Virus record (IMG/VR): IMGVR_UViG_3300000116_000021
Span: 1-21,091 of that record
Length of the DNA: 21,091 bases
DNA from: a virus
Reading direction: 5' to 3' (one strand)
Position 1 is the stretch's first letter, and each line of letters begins with the position of its first letter. The translations under genes and the position numbers were made by a program. This document shows, piece by piece, positions 8,757 through 21,091 of this stretch. The notes beneath the pieces are model-generated. The model did not search any database, had not been told where the DNA came from, and was given only the letters and a program-made list of their open reading frames with translations.

Positions 8757-9483
8757 TATATTCAGATATTATCTTATTTGTTTTAGAACCTGGATGATCT
8801 TTATCCCTAGCTGCATCAATTGTTTTTATAAACTTGCACTCAGGAATTATTCTTTGATTTGATGGAAATAGTGAAAAATCTACGTATGGAATATCATCCC
8901 ACATCTGATGTATAGATTCTCTAAGATATCTATGGTGCATAATACAATTCATATCAAACCTTCTCCATGTTTTGCCCAAATCAGATACATCTTCTGTCCA
9001 ATTACCACAATGGACTGATTGATATTCATTATGGCCTTGAGGTATAAACAACGTACATCTACTGGCGTCTGGTATGTCAAAAACCACTGCTCTTGGTTTA
9101 GGATACTTTTTTCTAAACATTGCTGAATTATATAACATATATTGAAGACTACAACCAGGAACCCCCAAATTAATTGATGGTATATTTGTAATTGAAGAAA
9201 ATGTACCAGGAATAGTATCTTTTAAACATACACCTACACCAAACATATTTGAACATCCAAACATGACTACAGTTTTATCCCATGGTATTTTATTAAACTC
9301 AAACGTTCTATATCCATTAGTGTTTAGCTTATATGTAATACGTTTATGCCTATATTCCCAATCAGAACTTTCTATTTTAAGATTTCTTTCATAAAGTTCT
9401 TTACTATCATTATCATGATATCTATTGTCACCATCTCCACTATTTGTAATGGGCAATAGATCATTTGAAAATTTATGTGTCAT
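8734..9483 (-). CDS. SGNH/GDSL-type hydrolase (copy beside carbamoyltransferase)
   Basis: 249-aa paralogue of the SGNH protein at 6147-6965. Nucleophile block FGCSNMFGVG (75-84, Ser78), block II NLGVPG (105-110), and a clear catalytic Asp227-x-x-His230 followed by PG, as in bacterial SGNH acyl-hydrolases. Shared features with the paralogue include LNTNGYRTFEF (53-63) and KKYPKPRAVVF (125-135). Its ATG overlaps the carbamoyltransferase stop (ATGA), so the two are translated together; an acyl- or carbamoyl-group chemistry on the same substrate is a plausible inference. There is no signal peptide, so it acts in the host cytoplasm or on virion material before release. Substrate unknown. Confidence 0.8.
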   Translation of the reverse strand: MTHKFSNDLLPITNSGDGDNRYHDNDSKELYERNLKIESSDWEYRHKRITYKLNTNGYRTFEFNKIPWDKTVVMFGCSNMFGVGVCLKDTIPGTFSSITNIPSINLGVPGCSLQYMLYNSAMFRKKYPKPRAVVFDIPDASRCTLFIPQGHNEYQSVHCGNWTEDVSDLGKTWRRFDMNCIMHHRYLRESIHQMWDDIPYVDFSLFPSNQRIIPECKFIKTIDAARDKDHPGSKTNKIISEYIASELDL

Positions 9484-10904
9484 GAAAATACCCCCACATC
9501 ATTCAAGTGAGACCATCGTTCAACATCATACTCATCATTAACAATCGGTTCTCCCTTAACATTTAAACTTGTATTTAAAAGGATTGGATATCCAGATACA
9601 TTTCCCCAACGCATAAGCAAATCATACAATTTTGGTGCATCAGTTTTCTTTACAGTCTGTACTCTACTAGTACCATCAACATGCACAACGCCATGAAGTT
9701 TGTCTGGAATTTTACACTTGACAGCATATTGCATGTAGGGACTTTCTACAAGATCATCATGCATATCAAAATATTTTGAAGCAAATTCAAGAGGTACTAT
9801 AGGTGAGAATGGTCTAAATGACTGCCTATTTTTAATTTTATTTACAGTATCCTTTATTCCAGGATGTGTAGGGTCTGCCAATAGACTCCTAGCACCCAAT
9901 GCTCTTGGTCCAAACTCTGCTCTACCTCTTGCCAATCCACATACTTTATTCTTCTGCAAATAGTTAACAATACTAGTATTTGTAGACCTATGTAGTATTT
10001 TATATCCAAGGTATGGTGTAAATTTTATCTTATTCTTTTTATGTGCCAATACTGCACCAATAGCAGAACCCGCATCACCTGGTGCTGGCATAATCCATAC
10101 ATTTTTAAAGTAATCATATGCATGACAATTTGCTACACAATTCAGAGCACAACCACCCATCATCACCAAATTGTCAGTATCAACAATCTCTCTAGTCTTT
10201 TTTAAAGCAACTTTTAACAGAATCTCATAAACATATTGGGTTGCAGCAGCAATATCTTCATCAGATTCTCCAAGTGCCCAATCTTTACATCCTTTATGAA
10301 AATTTCTTTTACACTTAAAATCAGTTCCAATTAATTCATTTAATATTTTATCTTTAAGTTTATGTGGATTGCCGTATGAAGACAATGCCATTAAAATATA
10401 TTCTTCTTCATTTGGTTTTAATCCAATCCTTTGAGTCATAGCAGAGTACCATAGTCCAATACTATTAGGATACTTTAATTCATATTTTAACCGAATATCT
10501 ACACCATTTGCTTCCCAAATAGTCATAGTTTGATATTCGCCAATAGCATCTATTACAAGTATAGCAGATTTAACATAATTGCTAGTATAATATCCAGCAC
10601 ATGCATGACTGTAATGATGTCCTATAAATTTATGTTTACAGTTAAAATATTTTGAAAAGTTGTTAATAAGCAACCCCTGACCAGCAGTAAACTGCCTCAT
10701 TCTCTTTATCAGAGGATTTTCATACCAACAAATTAGTTCTGGATCTCCATATCTCAATGCATAATCTAAAATTGATTGATTGATATATGGATCATTTTTT
10801 ATACCACTAAACCTTTCACTCTCACTTGCAAACATAAGAGAATTATTTGAAAATACTGCAAGAGCAGCATTATGACTATTTGACGATATCCCCCATGTTA
10901 TCAT
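9480..10904 (-). CDS. Carbamoyltransferase, NodU/CmcH/TobZ family
   Basis: 474-aa enzyme that moves a carbamoyl group from carbamoyl phosphate, through an adenylated intermediate, to a hydroxyl group. The N-terminal Kae1-like domain shows SHNAALAVF (10-18), the metal-binding HHYSHACAGYY (96-106), Asp119 in VIDAIGEY and the MGGCALNC loop (249-256). The C-terminal domain has the highly diagnostic RAEFGPRALGARSLLADP (328-345) and NRQSFRPFSPIVP (359-371). It is shorter than typical NodU proteins (about 550-600 aa), but both domains are present. A strong GGGAG ribosome site precedes the ATG, and the gene overlaps the radical SAM gene by 29 bases and the SGNH gene by ATGA. Family members act on sugars, antibiotics and, in one reported viral case, hydroxymethylcytosine in DNA; the acceptor here is unknown. 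Confidence 0.95.
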   Translation of the reverse strand: MITWGISSNSHNAALAVFSNNSLMFASESERFSGIKNDPYINQSILDYALRYGDPELICWYENPLIKRMRQFTAGQGLLINNFSKYFNCKHKFIGHHYSHACAGYYTSNYVKSAILVIDAIGEYQTMTIWEANGVDIRLKYELKYPNSIGLWYSAMTQRIGLKPNEEEYILMALSSYGNPHKLKDKILNELIGTDFKCKRNFHKGCKDWALGESDEDIAAATQYVYEILLKVALKKTREIVDTDNLVMMGGCALNCVANCHAYDYFKNVWIMPAPGDAGSAIGAVLAHKKNKIKFTPYLGYKILHRSTNTSIVNYLQKNKVCGLARGRAEFGPRALGARSLLADPTHPGIKDTVNKIKNRQSFRPFSPIVPLEFASKYFDMHDDLVESPYMQYAVKCKIPDKLHGVVHVDGTSRVQTVKKTDAPKLYDLLMRWGNVSGYPILLNTSLNVKGEPIVNDEYDVERWSHLNDVGVFS

Positions 10905-11727
10905 AAATTTTCTCCCAATAACTGACTGGTAAAGTTGGATCTTTTTTAATTATAGGTTTTAATTGATTTGCTGGGCACATAGAACAAAAAGATTCATCTT
11001 CTTTACTTAAAAATTCTTTTAGTTCTTCATCACTACAATCAACATCAAGAGGTTTATATTTTAAATATGGATCCCATTTAGAATTTAAATTATATTTATT
11101 TGCCTGCATAGGCAAATATGCTAATGGAGGACACTTCCAAAGTTTACCTTCATGCAATTGTAATGCATGTTTTGATATACAATTATCCCAACTTTTGCGA
11201 GGATTATTATCTTGATATGGCATAATATTATTACCATATCCAGTATATTGTGGTATCCAGTGCTTATTGGTAAAATCCCAAAACTCAACACGAACTTTTT
11301 CAGAATGTCTCCACTCTTTTGCTAAAGTATATCCTCTTTTAAATCTTTTAATATAGTCCCTATGTTGTGTACTATGAATTGAGATTGCAAGTGCAGTATC
11401 TGTTACTCTTAATGCAGTAGGAAGATCTGGATGATTATGTAAAAAACTAGCGTTTGATACTAAATCAATTTTAGTATATGGATCTGGATACATCATCCTA
11501 ACCATATATACAAATCGTGCCAATTCTGGATGTAAAGTTGGTTCCCCACCAAGAATGACAAATCTTTTAGGTTTTAATTTTCGACTCCAATTATATAGCC
11601 ACTCTTCTGCATCATTTAGAGATACGTTACCAGAATGTCCATGATTGGAATAGTGAGAACATCCCTCACAAGTAAAATTGCAAGTATGTACTACATGAAA
11701 TTCTAATTGTTTAGTTCGGAATATCAT
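10876..11727 (-). CDS. Radical SAM enzyme with C-terminal auxiliary cluster cysteines (copy A)
   Basis: 283-aa iron-sulfur enzyme. The CNFTCEGC motif (Cys16, Cys20, Cys23) binds the 4Fe-4S cluster that cleaves S-adenosylmethionine to a radical; LGGEPTLHPE (59-68) is the SAM-contact loop. Cys183, Cys199, Cys231, Cys248 and Cys251 form a SPASM/Twitch-like C-terminal set likely to hold a second cluster. Such enzymes modify peptides, sugars or cofactors; the reaction is not predictable from sequence. It overlaps its upstream 2OG-oxygenase gene by ATGA and the carbamoyltransferase by 29 bases. A paralogue (14297-15115) has the same layout and shares a 100-base stretch at 93% DNA identity. Confidence 0.92.
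   Translation of the reverse strand: MIFRTKQLEFHVVHTCNFTCEGCSHYSNHGHSGNVSLNDAEEWLYNWSRKLKPKRFVILGGEPTLHPELARFVYMVRMMYPDPYTKIDLVSNASFLHNHPDLPTALRVTDTALAISIHSTQHRDYIKRFKRGYTLAKEWRHSEKVRVEFWDFTNKHWIPQYTGYGNNIMPYQDNNPRKSWDNCISKHALQLHEGKLWKCPPLAYLPMQANKYNLNSKWDPYLKYKPLDVDCSDEELKEFLSKEDESFCSMCPANQLKPIIKKDPTLPVSYWEKIYDNMGDIVK
11061..11160 (-). repeat. 93% identical DNA island shared with 14461-14560 (copy A)
   Basis: Aligned without gaps at an offset of 3400, the two 100-base blocks differ at 7 positions, while the 20 bases on the outer side match at only about 60%. The block codes for the region around QLHEGKLWKCP and LNSKWDPYLKY in both radical SAM proteins. Confidence 0.9.
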
Positions 11728-12254
11728 AGATCTTCAAAACTTGTAAAATTAATATTGATTAATAGTCTACGTGGTGTGGTTGTACATGTTGTTGCCGTAT
11801 GTCGTGTCTCACAAGGGAATATACAAAATCTATTTGCAACATTATGAACTTTTGTCCCATCTTCAAATAAAGTATATCCATCATTATCATTGATGTAGTA
11901 TATACCCGTAGTCAATTTTTGTGGGTAGTCTGTATGAAATCCTAACTTCAATTCCTTTATTTTTTCCGTCTGCATCATACAATTTGTTTTAATTCTAGCA
12001 ATTGATGACATTCCTGCTTTTTCAATCAAAGGTCTCAGCAAATAAAATGCTCTAGGAACCAGTATAGTATACATTGAGAACACTATTTGAGTAAAATGAT
12101 AATGCCCATCTGGATCATTTAATCCAACACAATCAGGAAGAAATTGCCAATTACAAGATCCTTCTTGAGTGCCGTCATCAAAGTCACCCTCATAATATTT
12201 ACGTATGTTCTCATACTCATTAGGCATAAGAAAATTATCAAGAATTTTTATCAT
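11724..12254 (-). CDS. 2OG-Fe(II) oxygenase (176 aa)
   Basis: Compact single-domain dioxygenase. Visible are FHTDY with metal ligands His107 and Asp109, distal His152 in ETRHTA, and Arg162/Arg163 in PRRLLININF for 2-oxoglutarate: a complete active site. The start MIKILDNFLMPNEY at 12254 is preferred over an ATG four codons upstream, because GGAG lies 7 bases before it and the opening matches the usual helix-first start of phage prolyl-hydroxylase-like proteins. The gene overlaps the upstream cupin-like gene by 17 bases and couples by ATGA to radical SAM copy A. Substrate unknown; the tight coupling suggests oxygenase and radical SAM enzyme act on the same molecule. Confidence 0.87.
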   Translation of the reverse strand: MIKILDNFLMPNEYENIRKYYEGDFDDGTQEGSCNWQFLPDCVGLNDPDGHYHFTQIVFSMYTILVPRAFYLLRPLIEKAGMSSIARIKTNCMMQTEKIKELKLGFHTDYPQKLTTGIYYINDNDGYTLFEDGTKVHNVANRFCIFPCETRHTATTCTTTPRRLLININFTSFEDL

Positions 12255-12801
12255 CAATTTCTCCATTGGATGTTAAAATTTGAACTGCCTCATCAAAAGA
12301 GTTATACGGCAATTCCATGCAAATGCATTTGCAGTCAGTAATACCAGGTCTTGTTGGTGTTATAGAATATGGTTTAGATAAATCCAAGAGATATGCTTCC
12401 CCTGGATATGCCATAAATCTAACTGATTTTTTCAAATACGAGTTATGGAAAGTAGCACCCTCTATTTGATTATTAATATCATCACCATGTATTTCTGGAT
12501 TAAGAGGATAATAGAATTGTGTAATACATTTATCAGGTTTAATATAAAAATTTATAACTGATTCAATTCCATTATTGGTATGAGGAGGAAGAGTATAATT
12601 TAATTCCATTACTGACAGTTTACAGTTTTCACGATCACTACTAGGAATAACTCGATATAGTTCATCATCATAACTGGTTCTTACATGAGAATACTTAACC
12701 CCCCTAAATCCCATAGGAGTGTCGATACCATATTCGATTTTACTACCATTTTTTTGATAATGATCAATAAAAAACTTTTTATTTAATTTACGATAAAACA
12801 T
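12238..12801 (-). CDS. Cupin/2OG-oxygenase-like beta-helix protein with altered metal site
   Basis: 187-aa protein with a beta-helix pattern: LPPHTNNGIESVINFYI (71-87), a strand pair around KCITQFYYPL, then YPGEAYLLDLSKPYSI (132-147) and a final CKCICMEL strand. The position that normally reads H-x-D reads His74-Thr-Asn76, so iron binding is uncertain; it may be a non-catalytic or cupin-type relative. The ATG at 12801 is chosen over 12849 because a GGAG site precedes it by 7 bases and it then avoids overlapping the HNH gene. It sits between the HNH nuclease and a full 2OG oxygenase. The family call is moderate; another beta-helix fold is possible. Confidence 0.6.
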   Translation of the reverse strand: MFYRKLNKKFFIDHYQKNGSKIEYGIDTPMGFRGVKYSHVRTSYDDELYRVIPSSDRENCKLSVMELNYTLPPHTNNGIESVINFYIKPDKCITQFYYPLNPEIHGDDINNQIEGATFHNSYLKKSVRFMAYPGEAYLLDLSKPYSITPTRPGITDCKCICMELPYNSFDEAVQILTSNGEIDDKNS

Positions 12802-12814
12802 AAAATCACTCCAA

Positions 12815-13288
12815 TTAAAAATAAATATATTCCTTCCACTCTGGAACATTGCAATTTGCTAGATCAAAAGCAACAAAACTGTAAGGTGCATTTGGTTTTT
12901 TTGATAGATTCATTTTAGTATTCTCTAACAATTTATCACTTTTTTTAGTATTGCACTTTGAACATGCAACCACTAAGTTTTCCCAAGTATCTTTACCACC
13001 CTTACTTTTTGGAATAACATGATCAATTGTCAATCTACTTGTTGAACCACAATATTGGCAAGAATTTCTGTCACGTTTGTATATCATAGATCTAGTTGGT
13101 TTATTGTCAGCATATTTAATTGGAACTCTAACATAACTCAACAATCTTATAACTCTTTTTGATAATACCTGTACCTTTTCCTTTAATACAAGAACAACTG
13201 CTCTCTTCCAATTAGTGAAATTAATTGGTTCATAACTTGAATTAAGTACTAAAACCGTTTGATACGGTTGAATCTTTAGATGCTCCAT
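12815..13288 (-). CDS. HNH endonuclease
   Basis: 157-aa nuclease of the widespread cyanobacterial/bacterial HNH type. The N-terminal part (VLVLNSSYEPINFTNWKRAV) is typical of this subfamily. The catalytic core has CQYCG (Cys77, Cys80), DHVIPKSKGG with the general-base His, the ENLVVAC stretch with the Asn, and CSKCN closing the zinc site with two more cysteines. All expected residues are present, so the protein should cut DNA. It lies between the two radical SAM/2OG sub-clusters. It could be a free-standing homing-type nuclease that spreads the neighbouring genes or a host-derived gene; the sequence does not decide. Confidence 0.95.
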   Translation of the reverse strand: MEHLKIQPYQTVLVLNSSYEPINFTNWKRAVVLVLKEKVQVLSKRVIRLLSYVRVPIKYADNKPTRSMIYKRDRNSCQYCGSTSRLTIDHVIPKSKGGKDTWENLVVACSKCNTKKSDKLLENTKMNLSKKPNAPYSFVAFDLANCNVPEWKEYIYF

Positions 13289-13315
13289 ACAAGTTACGTT
13301 ATTAAAGATATTTTA

Positions 13316-13549
13316 TCACTTATACATGGTATCTGACAAGTCCAACAAAAACAAAATTTCCTCTATGGTGTCCTGCACTCCAGGACATTTACGAAGTACG
13401 TCTTGTTTATATCTACCGTTTTTCATATCAGAGATCAAATCAGGATGAGATTGCAACCACACCATCTCTTCACTGTCTAATTGATCAAAATTACCCTGAT
13501 TTATTTTGGTAACAATACTAAAGTATTTAATTCTATCTTGAGCATTCAT
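13316..13549 (-). CDS. Small hypothetical protein (77 aa)
   Basis: Unrecognised 77-aa protein, mostly helical and acidic (DSEEMVWLQSHPDLISDMKNG...DTIEEILFLLDL). It has no metal or catalytic motif. It begins inside the stop of the upstream oxygenase gene (ATGA at 13549-13546) and is followed 27 bases later by the HNH gene, so it is co-translated with the oxygenase and may be its partner. Function unknown. Confidence 0.68.
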   Translation of the reverse strand: MNAQDRIKYFSIVTKINQGNFDQLDSEEMVWLQSHPDLISDMKNGRYKQDVLRKCPGVQDTIEEILFLLDLSDTMYK

Positions 13550-14307
13550 AATTTTGATTTGTGCTTAAAATCTAACACAATAACACAACGATGAGATTTA
13601 CTTGCGACTTCTGGTGGAGGCATAACTGGTTGGTGATTTATATTAGAATGATGTATAAGCAAAGAATTTTCATCACCAGGTAGTATTATCTCCCTATCAT
13701 CATTTTCTATTAAAGTACCATAAATTCTAGATGGATTTCTCAAATAATAAATCATTCCAAGATCAAAATCTTCATGTGCGTGTGAATTTTTATAATTTGG
13801 ATATAATTGTTGATCATAATCAAGATCATTATTACCCTTCATACGTTTTGACCAATATGAAGCGATTTTATATTCTTTAACTTCGGGGTCACCAACAACT
13901 TCAGAATAATTATTTAAATGTTGTTTTATTTTAGCAAAAAAGATATACCAACTAGTCTTATACCACAATTTTCTATTGGATAAATTATTAGTTGCTTCAA
14001 CACTTCTATCCCACTTATTACCAGATCGCAATTCGTCATCAATATCTTGCTCAATCTCATTTTGAACTTGATGTGTCAAAAGATTATATGCACGATAAAT
14101 TGTATTGTCACAAAAGTCAAAATGATTAACATTTCTTGTATCAAAAAACTCACTGTCACCTGAGGTACAATCATTCTCAAGTACTCTAAATGTTCTTAAA
14201 TATTCATCACTTATAATTTCATCTAATCTAACAGTAGGAGTAGTTCTTGATCTATTTGCCAACTCAAAAATCTTATTCTGCTGCCCAATACTCAATTTAA
14301 GTGTCAT
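13546..14307 (-). CDS. 2OG-Fe(II) oxygenase-like protein (253 aa)
   Basis: The C-terminal beta-helix domain carries a plausible full active site: His178-Glu-Asp180 (SHAHEDFD), distal His225 in NINHQPV and Arg240 in SHRCVIVLDF. The first 150 residues are mostly helical and unlike the other oxygenases here; they contain an acidic, asparagine-rich stretch and may select the substrate. The gene overlaps the end of radical SAM copy B by 11 bases and couples to the 77-aa gene by ATGA, so radical SAM copy B is flanked by oxygenases on both sides. Substrate unknown. The family call rests on spacing of these residues and the strand pattern between them. Confidence 0.72.
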   Translation of the reverse strand: MTLKLSIGQQNKIFELANRSRTTPTVRLDEIISDEYLRTFRVLENDCTSGDSEFFDTRNVNHFDFCDNTIYRAYNLLTHQVQNEIEQDIDDELRSGNKWDRSVEATNNLSNRKLWYKTSWYIFFAKIKQHLNNYSEVVGDPEVKEYKIASYWSKRMKGNNDLDYDQQLYPNYKNSHAHEDFDLGMIYYLRNPSRIYGTLIENDDREIILPGDENSLLIHHSNINHQPVMPPPEVASKSHRCVIVLDFKHKSKL

Positions 14308-15115
14308 ACTTATTCTTCCAATAACTAACAGGCAATAAAGGATTCTCTGGCGTAAAATATTCCTCTTTAGCAGGACACATTTTACAAAAACTCTCAGATC
14401 TACGAGTAAAAAAGTCTCTCAAGTCTTTACTGTTACAATCAGATTCAAGTGGAACATACTTCAAATATGGATCCCATTTAGAATTTAAATTATATTTTTC
14501 TGCCTGCATAGGCAAATATGCTAATGCTGGGCACTTCCAAAGTTTACCTTCATGCAACTGCACACAAAGTTTAGAGACACAATACTTCCAACTATTTTTA
14601 GGATCATTATCTTCATAGGGTTCCATTTTATCCCCAAAACCATTATACTGTCTAATCCAATGCCTAATAGAAGGTCTTAACTCAACTGGTGCTCCATTGT
14701 CCATCCAAGATCGCAATAATTCATAAACTGGTTTAAACTTCTCAACATATTCAGGATCACTATCAGAATGAACCGATACTCCCAAAACAGTACCTGTTTC
14801 TTTCAAAGCTTTACAAAGATCTGGATGCTTATATAAGTAAAATCCATTTGATATGACTTCAATATATGAATTTGGCCACATATTACGAGCCAAATAAACA
14901 AACTTTGTAAGATCTTTATTAAGTGCTGGTTCACCCCCCATTAAGGTAAATCTTTGAGGTAGAATTAATTTTTTCCACTTCCACATCCACTCTTCTGCCT
15001 CCTCAAGAGATAATGATCCTGAATGACCCTGGTTCATATAATGTGTGCATCCTTCACATGTAAGATTACATGAATGTGTTAGATGTAATTGTATCTCATG
15101 AGGTACTTTTAACAT
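14297..15115 (-). CDS. Radical SAM enzyme with C-terminal auxiliary cluster cysteines (copy B)
   Basis: 272-aa paralogue of copy A (10876-11727). CNLTCEGC (Cys16, Cys20, Cys23) is the SAM-radical cluster motif and MGGEPALN (59-66) the SAM-contact loop. C-terminal cysteines at about 179, 184, 195, 227, 244 and 247 likely hold an auxiliary cluster. The N-terminal halves of the two copies are clearly related but diverged, while the segment around QLHEGKLWKCP and LNSKWDPYLKY is almost unchanged even at DNA level. The ATG overlaps the stop of a 2OG-oxygenase gene (TAATG) and its own end overlaps another, making a 2OG-radical SAM-2OG sandwich. The reaction is unknown. Confidence 0.92.
   Translation of the reverse strand: MLKVPHEIQLHLTHSCNLTCEGCTHYMNQGHSGSLSLEEAEEWMWKWKKLILPQRFTLMGGEPALNKDLTKFVYLARNMWPNSYIEVISNGFYLYKHPDLCKALKETGTVLGVSVHSDSDPEYVEKFKPVYELLRSWMDNGAPVELRPSIRHWIRQYNGFGDKMEPYEDNDPKNSWKYCVSKLCVQLHEGKLWKCPALAYLPMQAEKYNLNSKWDPYLKYVPLESDCNSKDLRDFFTRRSESFCKMCPAKEEYFTPENPLLPVSYWKNKYDT
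14461..14560 (-). repeat. 93% identical DNA island shared with 11061-11160 (copy B)
   Basis: Partner of the block at 11061-11160: 93 of 100 bases match without gaps, with sharp edges on both sides. This suggests gene conversion or a recent recombination between the two radical SAM genes. Confidence 0.9.
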
Positions 15116-15729
15116 TACTCATCCCCTATATTAATATTTGCTGCCATAATCATTCTTTCTTCATCCGTCTGATTTGTTGGTGCATAATGCATAAGAGCAG
15201 AAGGAAATATAATCATAGATCCTTCAGTAATTCCTGAGGGTATATATTCCAAAACATTACCATCCTTTAAACTTGTAAATGGTGCAATAAAGGTTGTTGG
15301 ACTATGACTATCTGGACAGTAATCAACAAACACTACAATACTTAAAGCACCTAATCCATGATTATGTGGGGCATGATGGTGATTGTTGTTATAAATTTGA
15401 TACCATGCAGTAGTAATATGAGGTCTTGCATTAACATATCCAAGAGCAAGTACTCCAGCACACAAGTCGTCATGCAGAAGGTCGTCAATTAAGAGATGAT
15501 ATGTATTGTCAGTATCATAATCAGTTATCTGATCGTGTCCTTTATGATGGACCATATTTGATTTGGCACATCGATCCCAAATTTTAATCAATGTATTCTT
15601 CTTATCCTGCCAATTACTTAACTTAACGTGATAAAATGGAATTACCCAGTCTTTAATATAATGATTCGTATTAATAAACAAATCATCATCTGCAGATAGA
15701 TTTTTATTGGGGATGATTGAATTCTTCAT
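15115..15729 (-). CDS. 2OG-Fe(II) oxygenase, phage 2OG-FeII_5-like (204 aa)
   Basis: 204-aa beta-helix dioxygenase. A His-rich loop (HHHAPHNHG) gives metal ligands His122 and His124 in the usual H-x-H/D place. It is followed by IVVFVDY, a long acidic strand pair, then SALMHYAP with the distal His181 and Arg192 in ERMIMAANI for 2-oxoglutarate. His in place of Asp at the second ligand is odd, though phage members of this group do show it as far as I recall. It ends one base into the ATG of radical SAM copy B (TAATG) and starts inside the end of the 63-aa gene. A hydroxylation step on the same substrate as the radical SAM enzyme is inferred. Confidence 0.78.
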   Translation of the reverse strand: MKNSIIPNKNLSADDDLFINTNHYIKDWVIPFYHVKLSNWQDKKNTLIKIWDRCAKSNMVHHKGHDQITDYDTDNTYHLLIDDLLHDDLCAGVLALGYVNARPHITTAWYQIYNNNHHHAPHNHGLGALSIVVFVDYCPDSHSPTTFIAPFTSLKDGNVLEYIPSGITEGSMIIFPSALMHYAPTNQTDEERMIMAANINIGDE

Positions 15730-17179: not shown

Positions 17180-17592
17180 AATGACGAAAAACTACAGGTA
17201 ATTCTAGGTTCTAAGTGAATTGCTTCATGATAGGTTCCAGAATCAATGTAAAGAGCATCTCCTGGTTTAAGAAGTACCTCTCCATCATCCATTCTATACT
17301 TAATTCTACCCATAGAAGGCACAATAACAACATTCATCTCATCACAGTGTCTTCCACCAGTGACAGATTGTTTAAATCGAGAATAATATATGTGCATTAC
17401 CCTCCATTTTTCTGGTTCCCTATACATTTGATTAATTATACTCCTAAAGAGACCATCATACGGTCCCATGAGTAAAGTAACATCCTCCCTGGTTTCATGA
17501 GAATCCCTCTCAACTTCAAATTGAGTATCAACATGGTTCCATGTAATACCTTTCACAAACATAAATTTTTTTCGTTCTACTCGGTATGTCAT
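17176..17592 (-). CDS. Cupin/JmjC-like oxygenase (138 aa)
   Basis: 138-aa beta-helix protein. GRHCDEMNVVIV (80-91) gives His82-x-Asp84, followed by the strand MGRIKYRM, the turn LLKPGDALYIDSGTYHEA (107-124) with distal His122, and a last strand with Arg130. The PGD-x-LYI-x-x-G-x-x-H pattern is the one seen in cupin_4/JmjC-like protein hydroxylases such as the ribosomal-protein hydroxylase group, although this protein is much shorter and lacks their C-terminal dimer domain. It may hydroxylate a host or phage protein, or be a plain metal cupin. Its ATG overlaps the helicase stop (ATGA). Confidence 0.72.
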   Translation of the reverse strand: MTYRVERKKFMFVKGITWNHVDTQFEVERDSHETREDVTLLMGPYDGLFRSIINQMYREPEKWRVMHIYYSRFKQSVTGGRHCDEMNVVIVPSMGRIKYRMDDGEVLLKPGDALYIDSGTYHEAIHLEPRITCSFSSL

Positions 17593-18845
17593 CGTTTAAT
17601 AGTAGAGATAGCAGGTTGACCTTGAACAAAAACAGTATCAACAACACTTTGAAGACGCTTGACTGTAGAGATGCCCACATTACTGTAAACAGGAACATGA
17701 ACTAAACCAAAAGACTTAGTATAATCTTGAAGTTTGCCTGGAACAAGAGTACCTTCTTCAATGCGTTTAATGTCATCCAAATGAAGGCGAATAACCCTTC
17801 CAACAGACTGACACATCTCAATAACATTCATCTGACGCATAAGGACTAAAGAGGTCAAACCAGGAACAGAAATGCCCTCACTCAAAATAGAGTAATGCAT
17901 GACAATAAACTTCCTATTTGGATCAGCACCATACTCACGGACCAGATTAAAAAACTCTTCACGGGTAATTTTAGAATTATTATGAAATGCACCATGCTTA
18001 CTGGTAATCCAAAGTAGATCATAACCCATAGAATGAACTTCATTCATGAAGTCAGTAGTAGCAAGCATACGAATCAAAACCTTCGTATTTGGTGCGGCAA
18101 TCAAAACCTTCTCCATATGATCCTCATTATATAAAGTGTCAAGAAGAGTCATACAATCACGCTCTGCTGCTTCTTCACCCTTCTCACGAAAAGTACCTAT
18201 AGGAATAGCATTAATCTTAGGAGGTAGAATTGAACCATTGTTCACCAAACGAGGGGCAGGAACATTGTAAATAATTCCACCAAAAATAGAATCGTTCATA
18301 CCATACTTTTTACCAGTTGATGAATACTTAGGAGTAGCAGTGAAGAAATAACAATGATTAGAAGTGAGTGCAAAATGTTTGGTAGAACCAAAGAAGTTCC
18401 TCTTGATAGAGTTGTGTGCTTCATCAAAGTAAATACTGTCAACAGAAATACCTGCTTCCTGAATACGATGCAACGAATGATATGTAGTAATTATCAACTT
18501 GTTGCCTCTAGTATTGTTACACCAAGTGAAGATCTGATTTGATTTGGTTGTCGTAAAATAAGGAAGATCATTACCCGAGTGAACATGCATCACGGAAGCA
18601 TTAGTAATATGTTCTGTAAACTCAGCAGATAGTTGACGCGCAAGCATAAGACGAGGAGCAACGACAACAATAGTTTTGTCTCCTGCCTCAAACTGACGCA
18701 TGGCATGTGTAATAGCAATGAATGTTTTTCCACCACCAGTTGGGACCACTATGATACCGATGGACTTCTTGCCCATAACATCAAGTGCTTCTTTCTGGTG
18801 GGGGCGGAGTTGCATCGAATTAGTGCCGATAGACATATTATACAT
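17589..18845 (-). CDS. SF2 DNA helicase (DEAH type, restriction-helicase-like)
   Basis: 418-aa superfamily 2 helicase. The start at 18845 (ATG with AGGG upstream) is preferred over an in-frame TTG at 18872. Domain 1 has the Q-motif-like LRPHQKEAL (13-21), Walker A VPTGGGKT (34-41), APRLMLARQL (63-72), DEAH (141-144) and FTATP (168-172). Domain 2 has the typical SEGISVPGL and QSVGRVIR (about 336-343) motifs. It differs from T4 UvsW, whose extra N-terminal domain is absent, and is closer to helicases of type I/III restriction systems, but no nuclease domain is fused. It follows two methyltransferase-like genes in the same run, suggesting a joint role in DNA modification, anti-restriction or repair. 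Confidence 0.93.
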   Translation of the reverse strand: MYNMSIGTNSMQLRPHQKEALDVMGKKSIGIIVVPTGGGKTFIAITHAMRQFEAGDKTIVVVAPRLMLARQLSAEFTEHITNASVMHVHSGNDLPYFTTTKSNQIFTWCNNTRGNKLIITTYHSLHRIQEAGISVDSIYFDEAHNSIKRNFFGSTKHFALTSNHCYFFTATPKYSSTGKKYGMNDSIFGGIIYNVPAPRLVNNGSILPPKINAIPIGTFREKGEEAAERDCMTLLDTLYNEDHMEKVLIAAPNTKVLIRMLATTDFMNEVHSMGYDLLWITSKHGAFHNNSKITREEFFNLVREYGADPNRKFIVMHYSILSEGISVPGLTSLVLMRQMNVIEMCQSVGRVIRLHLDDIKRIEEGTLVPGKLQDYTKSFGLVHVPVYSNVGISTVKRLQSVVDTVFVQGQPAISTIKR

Positions 18846-18868
18846 CAAAATGACCCTATTGTGAGCGG

Positions 18869-19285
18869 TCAATCAATAAACTGGTCAAGTGTCACAGGTC
18901 CATCTGTGCCATCAAATCGATAATGATACTGAAGTGCATCTGCACATACAAAATGAGGATGATCTGTAGGTACACCAATTCTCCTACACATCTCCTTATG
19001 ATTATCCTCCATCAACTCCACAGCATATAGCATATTGTTGACGATGTGATCTTTACTATGATATTCCTGCAACGCTTCATAAAGACAGACTATAAAATTA
19101 CCATCTCCCGCACAGTTGTCCATGAATCTAGAGTTTGGATTCTTTAGTTGTTCAATGGGAATGTCTTCTATCATGAGATTAATTAGGTCTGTTGGTGTAA
19201 AAACTTCTTGAGTTTGTTTAATTCTATCATCAGAACGTTCGAGAGTAGAACCATGAAGTTTGTTATGTTGATTCTTAGATGACAT
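18869..19285 (-). CDS. Methyltransferase-fold protein with motif I only (138 aa)
   Basis: 138-aa protein matching the N-terminal part of type I/IIG adenine methyltransferases: QEVFTPTDLINLMI (26-39), the SAM-binding motif I FMDNCAGDGNF (54-64), an acidic motif II (AVELMEDN) and a CADAL motif III. It then ends before any NPPY catalytic motif. From memory, similar stand-alone short proteins occur in cyanophages. It could bind SAM as a regulatory subunit or complete the neighbouring NPPY protein. The ATG at 19285 has a GGGGAAG ribosome site and overlaps the end of the upstream methyltransferase gene by 11 bases. It is either a split gene or a specialised SAM-binding partner. Confidence 0.8.
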   Translation of the reverse strand: MSSKNQHNKLHGSTLERSDDRIKQTQEVFTPTDLINLMIEDIPIEQLKNPNSRFMDNCAGDGNFIVCLYEALQEYHSKDHIVNNMLYAVELMEDNHKEMCRRIGVPTDHPHFVCADALQYHYRFDGTDGPVTLDQFID

Positions 19286-20681
19286 TCTGCTTCCCCAAAT
19301 ATTCTAACTCTTCAACGGTAAAACCAAATTGGTGAGATAAATTCTCATAGTTTGTGATGTCAGGTACTTCCGCATTCTTAATAGCAGGAGTAAATCCCGC
19401 AGTCTTTTTATAATTGTCCACAAAAAACTTGATAATCGAATTATCAAAGATTTTGCTAAGGCGCGTCCCTTCCTCTTCCGAAGTAATAGGACACCAAGCA
19501 TTAAGCATACCCACATATCCATTAGAGATAAACCTCTTCTTATATGTTGATGAGAACGGTACAATAAATTTTAGTACATCACTAGTATTGGGAAGAACAT
19601 CGGTTCTACCAATCTTATCTGCAGATTTATAAATCTCATACTTACCATCAGGAGTGTAATCATCATTAGCAATTACCTGACCCATCTTCAAGGGAATACG
19701 AGGATGGTTAGAGTTAGCAATCTTATCTAAAATGGAATGCTTAAGAGCAGCATCACCAAAGAGAGGCAAACCATCACGGAGATCCCAAGTAAATGATCTG
19801 TCTTGAGTGATGACAGTAGTCTTACCCTTATATGGTTCATTTACTAGATGCCAACGACATATTGCAACGCCTTCATTGAAGAAGTCATCAGCAGTGTAGT
19901 CAATCAGTTTGAGGTTGTAGATCGTAGAGAACAACTTCATGAACTTTTTACCCTTGCCAGTGTTGCCCAACACAGATGCAGGAGTGACCTCACACATATC
20001 TCCACCAGGAGCAACCATCTCTAGATGCTCTTCCACTATCTTTGTCCACAGTTTGTTGTTCCGTGCCTTCTTGGTCGGATCGTTATATGGAGGATTGGCA
20101 AGAATGGCAGTGAACTTCATGTCTGGGTGGGTAGCAACGATTTTGATCTGCTTGTCAATATATCCTACACGATTACGGTGACTATCGCAACTCTCCCACA
20201 CAGTGAGACGGTTGGGGTCAATTCCACGTTCCAAGAGTCGAGCAGAATGAGAACCACTTGGATCACCAAACATGTATGTGCTGCTCATATCCCGACAGTC
20301 ATTGATCATCGTGTCAAGCAATGGGGTAGGAATAGATTGCTGGGTAGCAGATGAGACCGATAGACCGTTAATAGTCTCAGAGATCGATTGCCTCATGCTC
20401 TTCTGAATGCTGTTGGAGACCAAACCGATGCGACGGGTCAGAAGTTCCATGCTGTGAGGATTCTTAGAGATAACCTCAGAGAGGATTCCTTCTCTATCAC
20501 CAGTTACAGAAGAATAAACATCAGAACCAATCACATCGTTGATGGAGTACACATTCCGACCACTACGGATGATGTAGAACATGGTCAGAGGGATAGATTC
20601 TAACAGTGCCTTGACAGTCTGCTTCTTCAGCGTGTCAAGGTCATCGACTTTTTTACGCGATCGGTCTCCATCACGACACAA
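19275..20681 (-). CDS. N6-adenine DNA methyltransferase-like protein (NPPY), possibly frameshift product
   Basis: 468-codon open frame. The catalytic motif ILANPPYNDP (193-202) is intact; a degenerate motif I (MFGDPSGSHSARLL, 137-150) lies before it. The C-terminal 200 residues resemble a target-recognition domain, with a TGK turn, a K-I-x-R strand and a final helix, as in Eco57I-like enzymes. It would methylate adenine in DNA using SAM. The only start before residue 34 is a TTG (20681) without a ribosome site. The frame overlaps the upstream ORF by 55 bases at a -1 slip signal, so it is probably read as the C-terminal part of one longer protein. It overlaps the motif-I protein by 11 bases. 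Base composition looks higher in GC than the island to its left. Confidence 0.87.
   Translation of the reverse strand: MCRDGDRSRKKVDDLDTLKKQTVKALLESIPLTMFYIIRSGRNVYSINDVIGSDVYSSVTGDREGILSEVISKNPHSMELLTRRIGLVSNSIQKSMRQSISETINGLSVSSATQQSIPTPLLDTMINDCRDMSSTYMFGDPSGSHSARLLERGIDPNRLTVWESCDSHRNRVGYIDKQIKIVATHPDMKFTAILANPPYNDPTKKARNNKLWTKIVEEHLEMVAPGGDMCEVTPASVLGNTGKGKKFMKLFSTIYNLKLIDYTADDFFNEGVAICRWHLVNEPYKGKTTVITQDRSFTWDLRDGLPLFGDAALKHSILDKIANSNHPRIPLKMGQVIANDDYTPDGKYEIYKSADKIGRTDVLPNTSDVLKFIVPFSSTYKKRFISNGYVGMLNAWCPITSEEEGTRLSKIFDNSIIKFFVDNYKKTAGFTPAIKNAEVPDITNYENLSHQFGFTVEELEYLGKQNVI
20609..20669 (-). promoter_or_regulatory. Candidate -1 programmed ribosomal frameshift signal
   Basis: On the minus strand: GGAG (20669-20666), 11 bases, slippery heptamer A AAA AAG (20654-20648) in phase with the upstream ORF, a 7-base spacer, then an 8-bp perfect stem CCTTGACA/TGTCAAGG (20640-20633 and 20616-20609) around a 16-base loop with an inner CTG/CAG pairing. 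The stop of the upstream frame (20629-20627) lies in the loop. A -1 slip enters the methyltransferase frame. The layout is like the dnaX signal of Escherichia coli. Confidence 0.72.
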
Positions 20682-21091
20682 CTTTGATTGTTGGCACCAT
20701 TGTCGTTTAATTGCACCTCTTTTAGGACTGTCGTAAGAGCAGACTTCAGGTTGAAGTTGAAGTCACTCAGACCACTGAGATCAAGAGACTCAACAATGCT
20801 GGTCACAGTAGAGATACTGCTCTCAACATCTGCTGCTAGAGCATCTTCAAATGCTTCCTTACTCAGTTCCTGGAACCCATCGTTCCATTCATGGATGTTG
20901 GTGAAGTCTACGACGCTGAATTGGGAGAGTGAGGGATTGCTATCACATGCGAGTTGGAACGCTGTATGAAGAGCACGTAGGCACCTCTGAGCATCAAAAT
21001 CAATCACCCACCAATCATGTTCACCAGATCCACCACGGAATGCAAACTGTGTCCAGAACTCAATCGATTCCCCACCACGGCAATTGATAAC
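20627..21091 (-). CDS. Unidentified ORF entering from the right edge (N-terminus missing)
   Basis: Open from the window edge to TGA at 20627, giving at least 154 residues; no start is needed inside the window. The visible part begins with an aromatic-rich stretch (IEFWTQFAFRGGSGEHDWW), followed by helical, acidic sequence with no motif I can name. It ends 12 codons after the heptamer at which a -1 shift would fuse it to the methyltransferase frame. The likely reading is that this is the N-terminal region of a large methyltransferase-type protein, with the short zero-frame end as an alternative product. Without the missing N-terminus, identity stays open. Confidence 0.72.
   Translation of the reverse strand, partial: VINCRGGESIEFWTQFAFRGGSGEHDWWVIDFDAQRCLRALHTAFQLACDSNPSLSQFSVVDFTNIHEWNDGFQELSKEAFEDALAADVESSISTVTSIVESLDLSGLSDFNFNLKSALTTVLKEVQLNDNGANNQSCVVMETDRVKKSMTLTR

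Follow-up and report, generated by a model that had tools for sequence, protein, structure and literature searches.

The DNA studied here, called the window, is a stretch of 21,091 nucleotides that forms the start of an IMG/VR virus record. At its far end, on the minus strand, the end of a helicase reading frame meets the start of a methyltransferase reading frame. The elements at this junction are:

20627..21091, minus strand: last part of the 0-frame helicase ORF, which tblastn matches at 42% identity to the helicase portion of WVQ00382.1, a protein of phage MA01
20666..20669, minus strand: internal Shine-Dalgarno-like (SD-like) GGAG, 11 nt 5' of the heptamer, with an SD-like element in 20/20 aligned rows
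20648..20654, minus strand: A_AAA_AAG, the slippery heptamer, whose phase is that of the helicase frame, read from the sequence and kept across the clade of relatives
20609..20640, minus strand: putative stimulatory stem-loop of 8 bp, 7 nt 3' of the heptamer, from fold energy and covariation
20640-20633 and 20616-20609, minus strand: the stem arms CCUUGACA and UGUCAAGG, around a loop of 16 nt
20627..20629, minus strand: 0-frame TGA within the hairpin loop, the predicted end of a short helicase-only product
19275..20648, minus strand: 457 codons of the -1 frame, encoding a linker/coupler-like segment, the N6-adenine methyltransferase and a C-terminal part (Pfam Eco57I, PHROG 3689)

Within the window the methyltransferase frame is exactly -1 relative to the upstream helicase frame. 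An earlier note on this DNA, made from the sequence alone, had said as much, and both the coordinates and an alignment bear it out. Its GGAG, in-phase A AAA AAG and 8-bp hairpin were also exact to the base, and they stand at the very point where the frame changes.

The upstream reading frame, which the note took for an N-terminal ORF, is really the 3' end of an SF2 helicase of ~600 codons that begins beyond the window. Its start is a GTG near position 22423 of record G000 (57,022 b), which gives ~598 aa in total. With the upstream ORF recognised as part of such a helicase, the gene as a whole is predicted to encode one helicase-methyltransferase of ~1,050 aa, resembling the Type ISP enzymes. 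From the N-terminus, the order is a domain of ~110 aa, an SF2 helicase (ResIII), a helical segment, and an Eco57I-type N6-adenine methyltransferase with a C-terminal part. The methyltransferase (NPPY) follows the helicase in the same chain, and this chain is unbroken in those related contigs that carry the gene in one frame. Pfam ResIII passes its threshold in two contigs, L063 (E 6.8e-9) and L037 (E 1.7e-7), and stays under it in L022; the Eco57I family passes in MA01, the window and L022.

A profile search of the ~110-aa domain gave no match to an N-terminal Mrr nuclease. This domain was also considered as a GIY-YIG domain. It has motif-like residues, but the Pfam match was subthreshold and found in 1 of 20 sequences (E 0.08), and a PDB fold search gave no significant match, so GIY-YIG is at most a tentative assignment. 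For the modelled full-length relative, the best PDB fold match is LlaBIII (4xqk), with an E of 9e-11 over 897 columns and a TM of 0.32. Because the model is poor (pLDDT 60), a Type ISP-like fold is only a lead.

Directly 3' of the helicase-methyltransferase gene, at 18869-19285 on the minus strand, is an N6-methyltransferase-like ORF of 138 aa (Pfam N6_Mtase, PHROG 4376). It has a motif-I-like stretch and no evident catalytic motif, and it overlaps a DNA helicase gene at 17589-18872 (minus strand). Further along, at 9480-15729 on the minus strand, a NolO/NodU-like carbamoyltransferase, Fe(II)/2OG-oxygenase-like ORFs and an HNH gene are clustered, together with two paralogous radical SAM proteins (10876-11727 and 14297-15115). 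This cluster is possibly a small phage biosynthetic island.

The junction is best explained as a dnaX-type programmed -1 ribosomal frameshift in a Type ISP-like helicase-methyltransferase gene of a phage, a reading to which we assign a probability of roughly 93%, judging from sequence comparison. The virus appears to be a phage of marine cyanobacteria with two predicted proteins from a single gene. The site combines an X_XXZ_ZZN heptamer in phase, an SD at 6-17 nt, a covarying stem-loop, and a near stop set against a long ORF. The motif A_AA.A_AA.G is among the most efficient in bacteria, and a GGAG 6-17 nt upstream stimulates slipping (PMC4066793).

Such sites are rare. In the contigs examined, 651 distinct ORFs that reach 100 aa or more, with 176,940 codons in all, yielded 37 distinct in-phase A_AAA_AAG sites. 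An SD-like sequence together with a hairpin of -7 kcal/mol or better was found at 15 of 15 sites in the helicase-methyltransferase family, versus 1 of 22 others. The hairpin in the window folds at -15.2 kcal/mol, against a shuffle mean of -6.4 (z = -3.5). The shuffle controls take no account of kinship among the sequences. An Rfam search at the frameshift site matched no known RNA family, frameshift elements included. There is also a second in-phase A_AAA_AAG in an unrelated ORF of 273 aa on contig L014, with a GGAG upstream, a hairpin of -7.9 kcal/mol and a -1 stop after one codon; this one may be chance.

Scans of IMG/VR delivered a clade of 25 contigs including the window. The heptamer A_AAA_AAG is invariant, in phase and in the same place in all 25. 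The frames that follow it come in two arrangements. In the 'shifted' arrangement, seen in 11 contigs (the window, L008, L009, L010, L023, L024, L025, L054, L037, L038 and L039), a stop closes the 0 frame after 0 or 6 codons, and the -1 frame stays open for 457. In the 'in frame' arrangement, seen in the other 14 (L011-L017, L031-L035, L063 and L065), the 0 frame continues into the fusion, and a -1 slip leads to one sense codon and then a stop. This -1 stop is written in three different sequences: GTC TGA, GTC TAA and GAT TGA. The shifted genes would make the fusion only by a -1 slip, and the in-frame genes would make the short form by that same slip. All 25 therefore encode the same two products.

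The two arrangements are intermixed. Well-supported branches force at least three changes between them, on the helicase and methyltransferase trees alike. For example, L038 is shifted and L063 is in frame, and the two gene parts of this pair differ by 19% and 9%. The shifted contigs come from different samples and include lineages that are only 58-60% identical. One pair, L037 and L065, is identical at the DNA level over the first ~150 aligned codons and up to about 40% different over the remainder, which points to recombination inside the gene.

The note had proposed aligning homologues, and across the clade the heptamer, its phase and the stem all turn out to be conserved. It had also named a case that would speak against frameshifting: homologues with an uninterrupted frame and no heptamer. 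Among close relatives there are none, and those that are uninterrupted keep the heptamer, SD and hairpin. The more distant or recombinant relatives L002, L018, L019, L060 and L068 have no heptamer in phase, and the hairpin is absent from those of them that were folded (L018, L019, L060 and L002). This is so even though the methyltransferases of L019 (72% identity) and L018 (65%) are nearer to that of the window than those of L037 and L038 (58%), which have kept the heptamer. In phage MA01 a single protein of 1,074 aa covers the helicase and methyltransferase parts. Yet other relatives (L003, L004, and IMG/VR contigs such as L042 and L050) carry helicase-plus-linker and methyltransferase in two genes that overlap or adjoin and are read in different frames. 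These are split about 120 codons beyond the frameshift position. Cellular genomes gave only one match, to the methyltransferase, on contig L072 in a bin labelled as a Rhodobacteraceae MAG; this is probably a misbinned phage contig.

The signal itself is well conserved. In the alignment 96.5% of the stem's cells are paired, against at most 42% for slid stem registers, and RNAalifold recovers the same stem. In four pairs both partners have changed, as in U-A to C-G and G-C to A-U. Stem conservation could partly follow from conservation of the protein (DLDTLKKQTVKALLES), although third positions covary. The hairpin lies 7-11 nt from the heptamer across relatives, and the SD-like element in the aligned rows is GGAG or GAGG. 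In 15 sequences there is zero synonymous variation at the GAG of the SD, at the A preceding the two Lys codons, and at the AAA and AAG themselves. Out of 1,082 overlapping windows, the junction ranks fifth in synonymous conservation; four score higher.

These same elements bear on whether it is the ribosome that slips or the RNA polymerase. Six A's are a short run for bacterial transcriptional slippage. Still, the run consists of a single kind of base, and transcripts that gained an A could give the fusion by normal translation, as happens by slippage in dnaX of Thermus thermophilus (PMC5009743). Slippage of this kind needs no final G, no SD-like sequence and no hairpin at a fixed distance, however, and all of these are conserved, the hairpin with compensatory changes. 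We infer that the slipping is ribosomal. Any slip re-reads the A run, and a contribution from transcription may remain, but as the main explanation it is highly unlikely.

A more mundane explanation is that a deletion broke the gene, or that it was misread or misassembled, and that the heptamer is a coincidence. In-frame homologues do exist, only one base separates the two frames, and other points of this gene are ambiguous in the window's record. But the shift is common to eleven contigs in lineages with synonymous distances near 0.9, and the heptamer, SD and stem are retained throughout. The note had singled out an artefactual indel in the six-A run as its main alternative. This is excluded because ten other contigs have the same shift, and because the missing base of the shifted genes sits after the heptamer, between it and the hairpin and so outside the A run.

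Nor does the methyltransferase look like debris. In the shifted clade its dN/dS is 0.07-0.21, and the same pairs give 0.05-0.13 in the helicase part. The divergent group of L037, L038, L063 and L065 has higher values, 0.29-0.71, so selection is weaker there or these contigs are noisier. Over the 22 codons after the slip, the window differs from L024 and L025, all of them shifted, by 6-7 synonymous changes and 1 non-synonymous change. By these counts, the methyltransferase of shifted genes is evidently under purifying selection, including the codons before any possible start. A broken gene or a faulty sequence is thus even less probable than slippage during transcription.

Equally improbable is that these are two separate, translationally coupled genes, with the methyltransferase starting on its own near the helicase stop. 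Phages S-CAM7 and ACG-2014f do have the two parts as separate, overlapping genes, and in the window a TTG stands 33 nt ahead of the slip point. But in L008, L037 and L038 the -1 frame offers no start codon from the last stop up to the slip point, and the next ATG, GTG or TTG lies 60-78 nt past it. In the shifted clade the first ATG comes 66 nt on and is not preceded by an SD. The codons between slip and first start are conserved as protein, and the split-gene phages break about 120 codons further downstream.

This leaves the programmed frameshift, and it suggests the following course of events. Ribosomes translating the helicase ORF would reach A_AAA_AAG with the GGAG behind them and the hairpin ahead, and tRNA-Lys would re-pair one base back on the ribosome. 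Those that do not slip would end at the TGA in the hairpin loop, giving a product of ~600 aa with the N-terminal domain and helicase. Those that do slip would read 457 further codons and make a helicase-linker-methyltransferase of ~1,050 aa. In the in-frame relatives, somewhat over half of the clade, the spacing after the heptamer differs, and there ordinary in-frame reading would yield the long form, and the slip the short one. The note's proposal of a dnaX-type frameshift, with a short protein ending in the hairpin loop and a methyltransferase fusion, is in this way supported by the comparative evidence.

Because both arrangements persist, slipping is probably highly efficient, near one half. 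The repeated natural reversal with a constant signal likewise points to a need for both products, in nearly equal amounts. The short form may supply extra motor subunits, with both products acting together. From there it is a further step, on which we would give even odds, to a multi-subunit Type ISP-like translocating enzyme, in which a frameshift near 50% would set the ratio of motor-only to motor-methyltransferase chains. Selection would then act on this ratio, whichever product is the default, and the arrangement could flip freely under a constant signal. Alternatively, the slip might merely limit the dose of methyltransferase, a role that sequence cannot separate from the supply of motor subunits.

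In the searchable literature, which takes in few subscription journals, no report was found of programmed frameshifting in DNA methyltransferase, restriction-modification-type or cyanophage genes. The note had known of no precedent for a cyanophage methyltransferase either, and the search agrees. The nearest case is a C-REase fusion in which a shift site was suspected, but a test detected no such product (PMC3850674). The PRFect paper also names a methyltransferase, a case that seems to be macrolide-induced frameshifting of a resistance gene and was set aside. As far as the searchable literature goes, the class of gene is new for a cassette of the dnaX kind; the cassette and its reversibility were already known.

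For annotation this is also a warning. Roughly half of the family has the look of a broken gene or of a pair of ORFs, and in the rest a second product is hidden from view. The family also offers a natural series of variants in which the influence of spacing and stem strength on efficiency could be measured.

Frameshifting is, to our knowledge, not known in the Type ISP family. Its members LlaBIII and LlaGI likewise have an SF2 helicase-like ATPase followed by an adenine methyltransferase in a single chain (PMC4666363). They differ in having an Mrr nuclease where the phage protein has its ~110-aa N-terminal domain. Among phages, MA01 has homologous helicase and methyltransferase parts in WVQ00382.1, but in one frame, with no heptamer and no stem. 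S-CAM7 and ACG-2014f also have homologous parts, as two overlapping genes broken at another point.

Other systems share the way the products are made, and not the gene. The G/GT tail assembly chaperone of tailed phages also uses a frameshift to make a short and a C-terminally extended protein (PMC10885494), but this is a tail assembly gene of unrelated sequence. In alpha-carboxysomes, csoS2 makes short and long forms of one protein with about 50% -1 frameshifting (PMC5009743). That protein is structural however, its long form is in frame, and there is no apparent SD stimulator.

The closest parallel is dnaX of E. coli, which makes tau and gamma. It too has A_AAA_AAG, an SD-like sequence upstream, a hairpin downstream, and a long and a short product with a common N-terminus. 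The in-frame relatives resemble the E. coli form, with the -1 stop one codon on. The window's arrangement matches the reversed form of dnaX found in a few bacteria, where the frameshift product and the in-frame product are known to have traded places (PMC5009743, PMC4066793). The genes are unrelated, with no sequence or Rfam homology at the site. What sets the phage gene apart from dnaX is that both arrangements interleave on one gene tree, with at least three changes between them.
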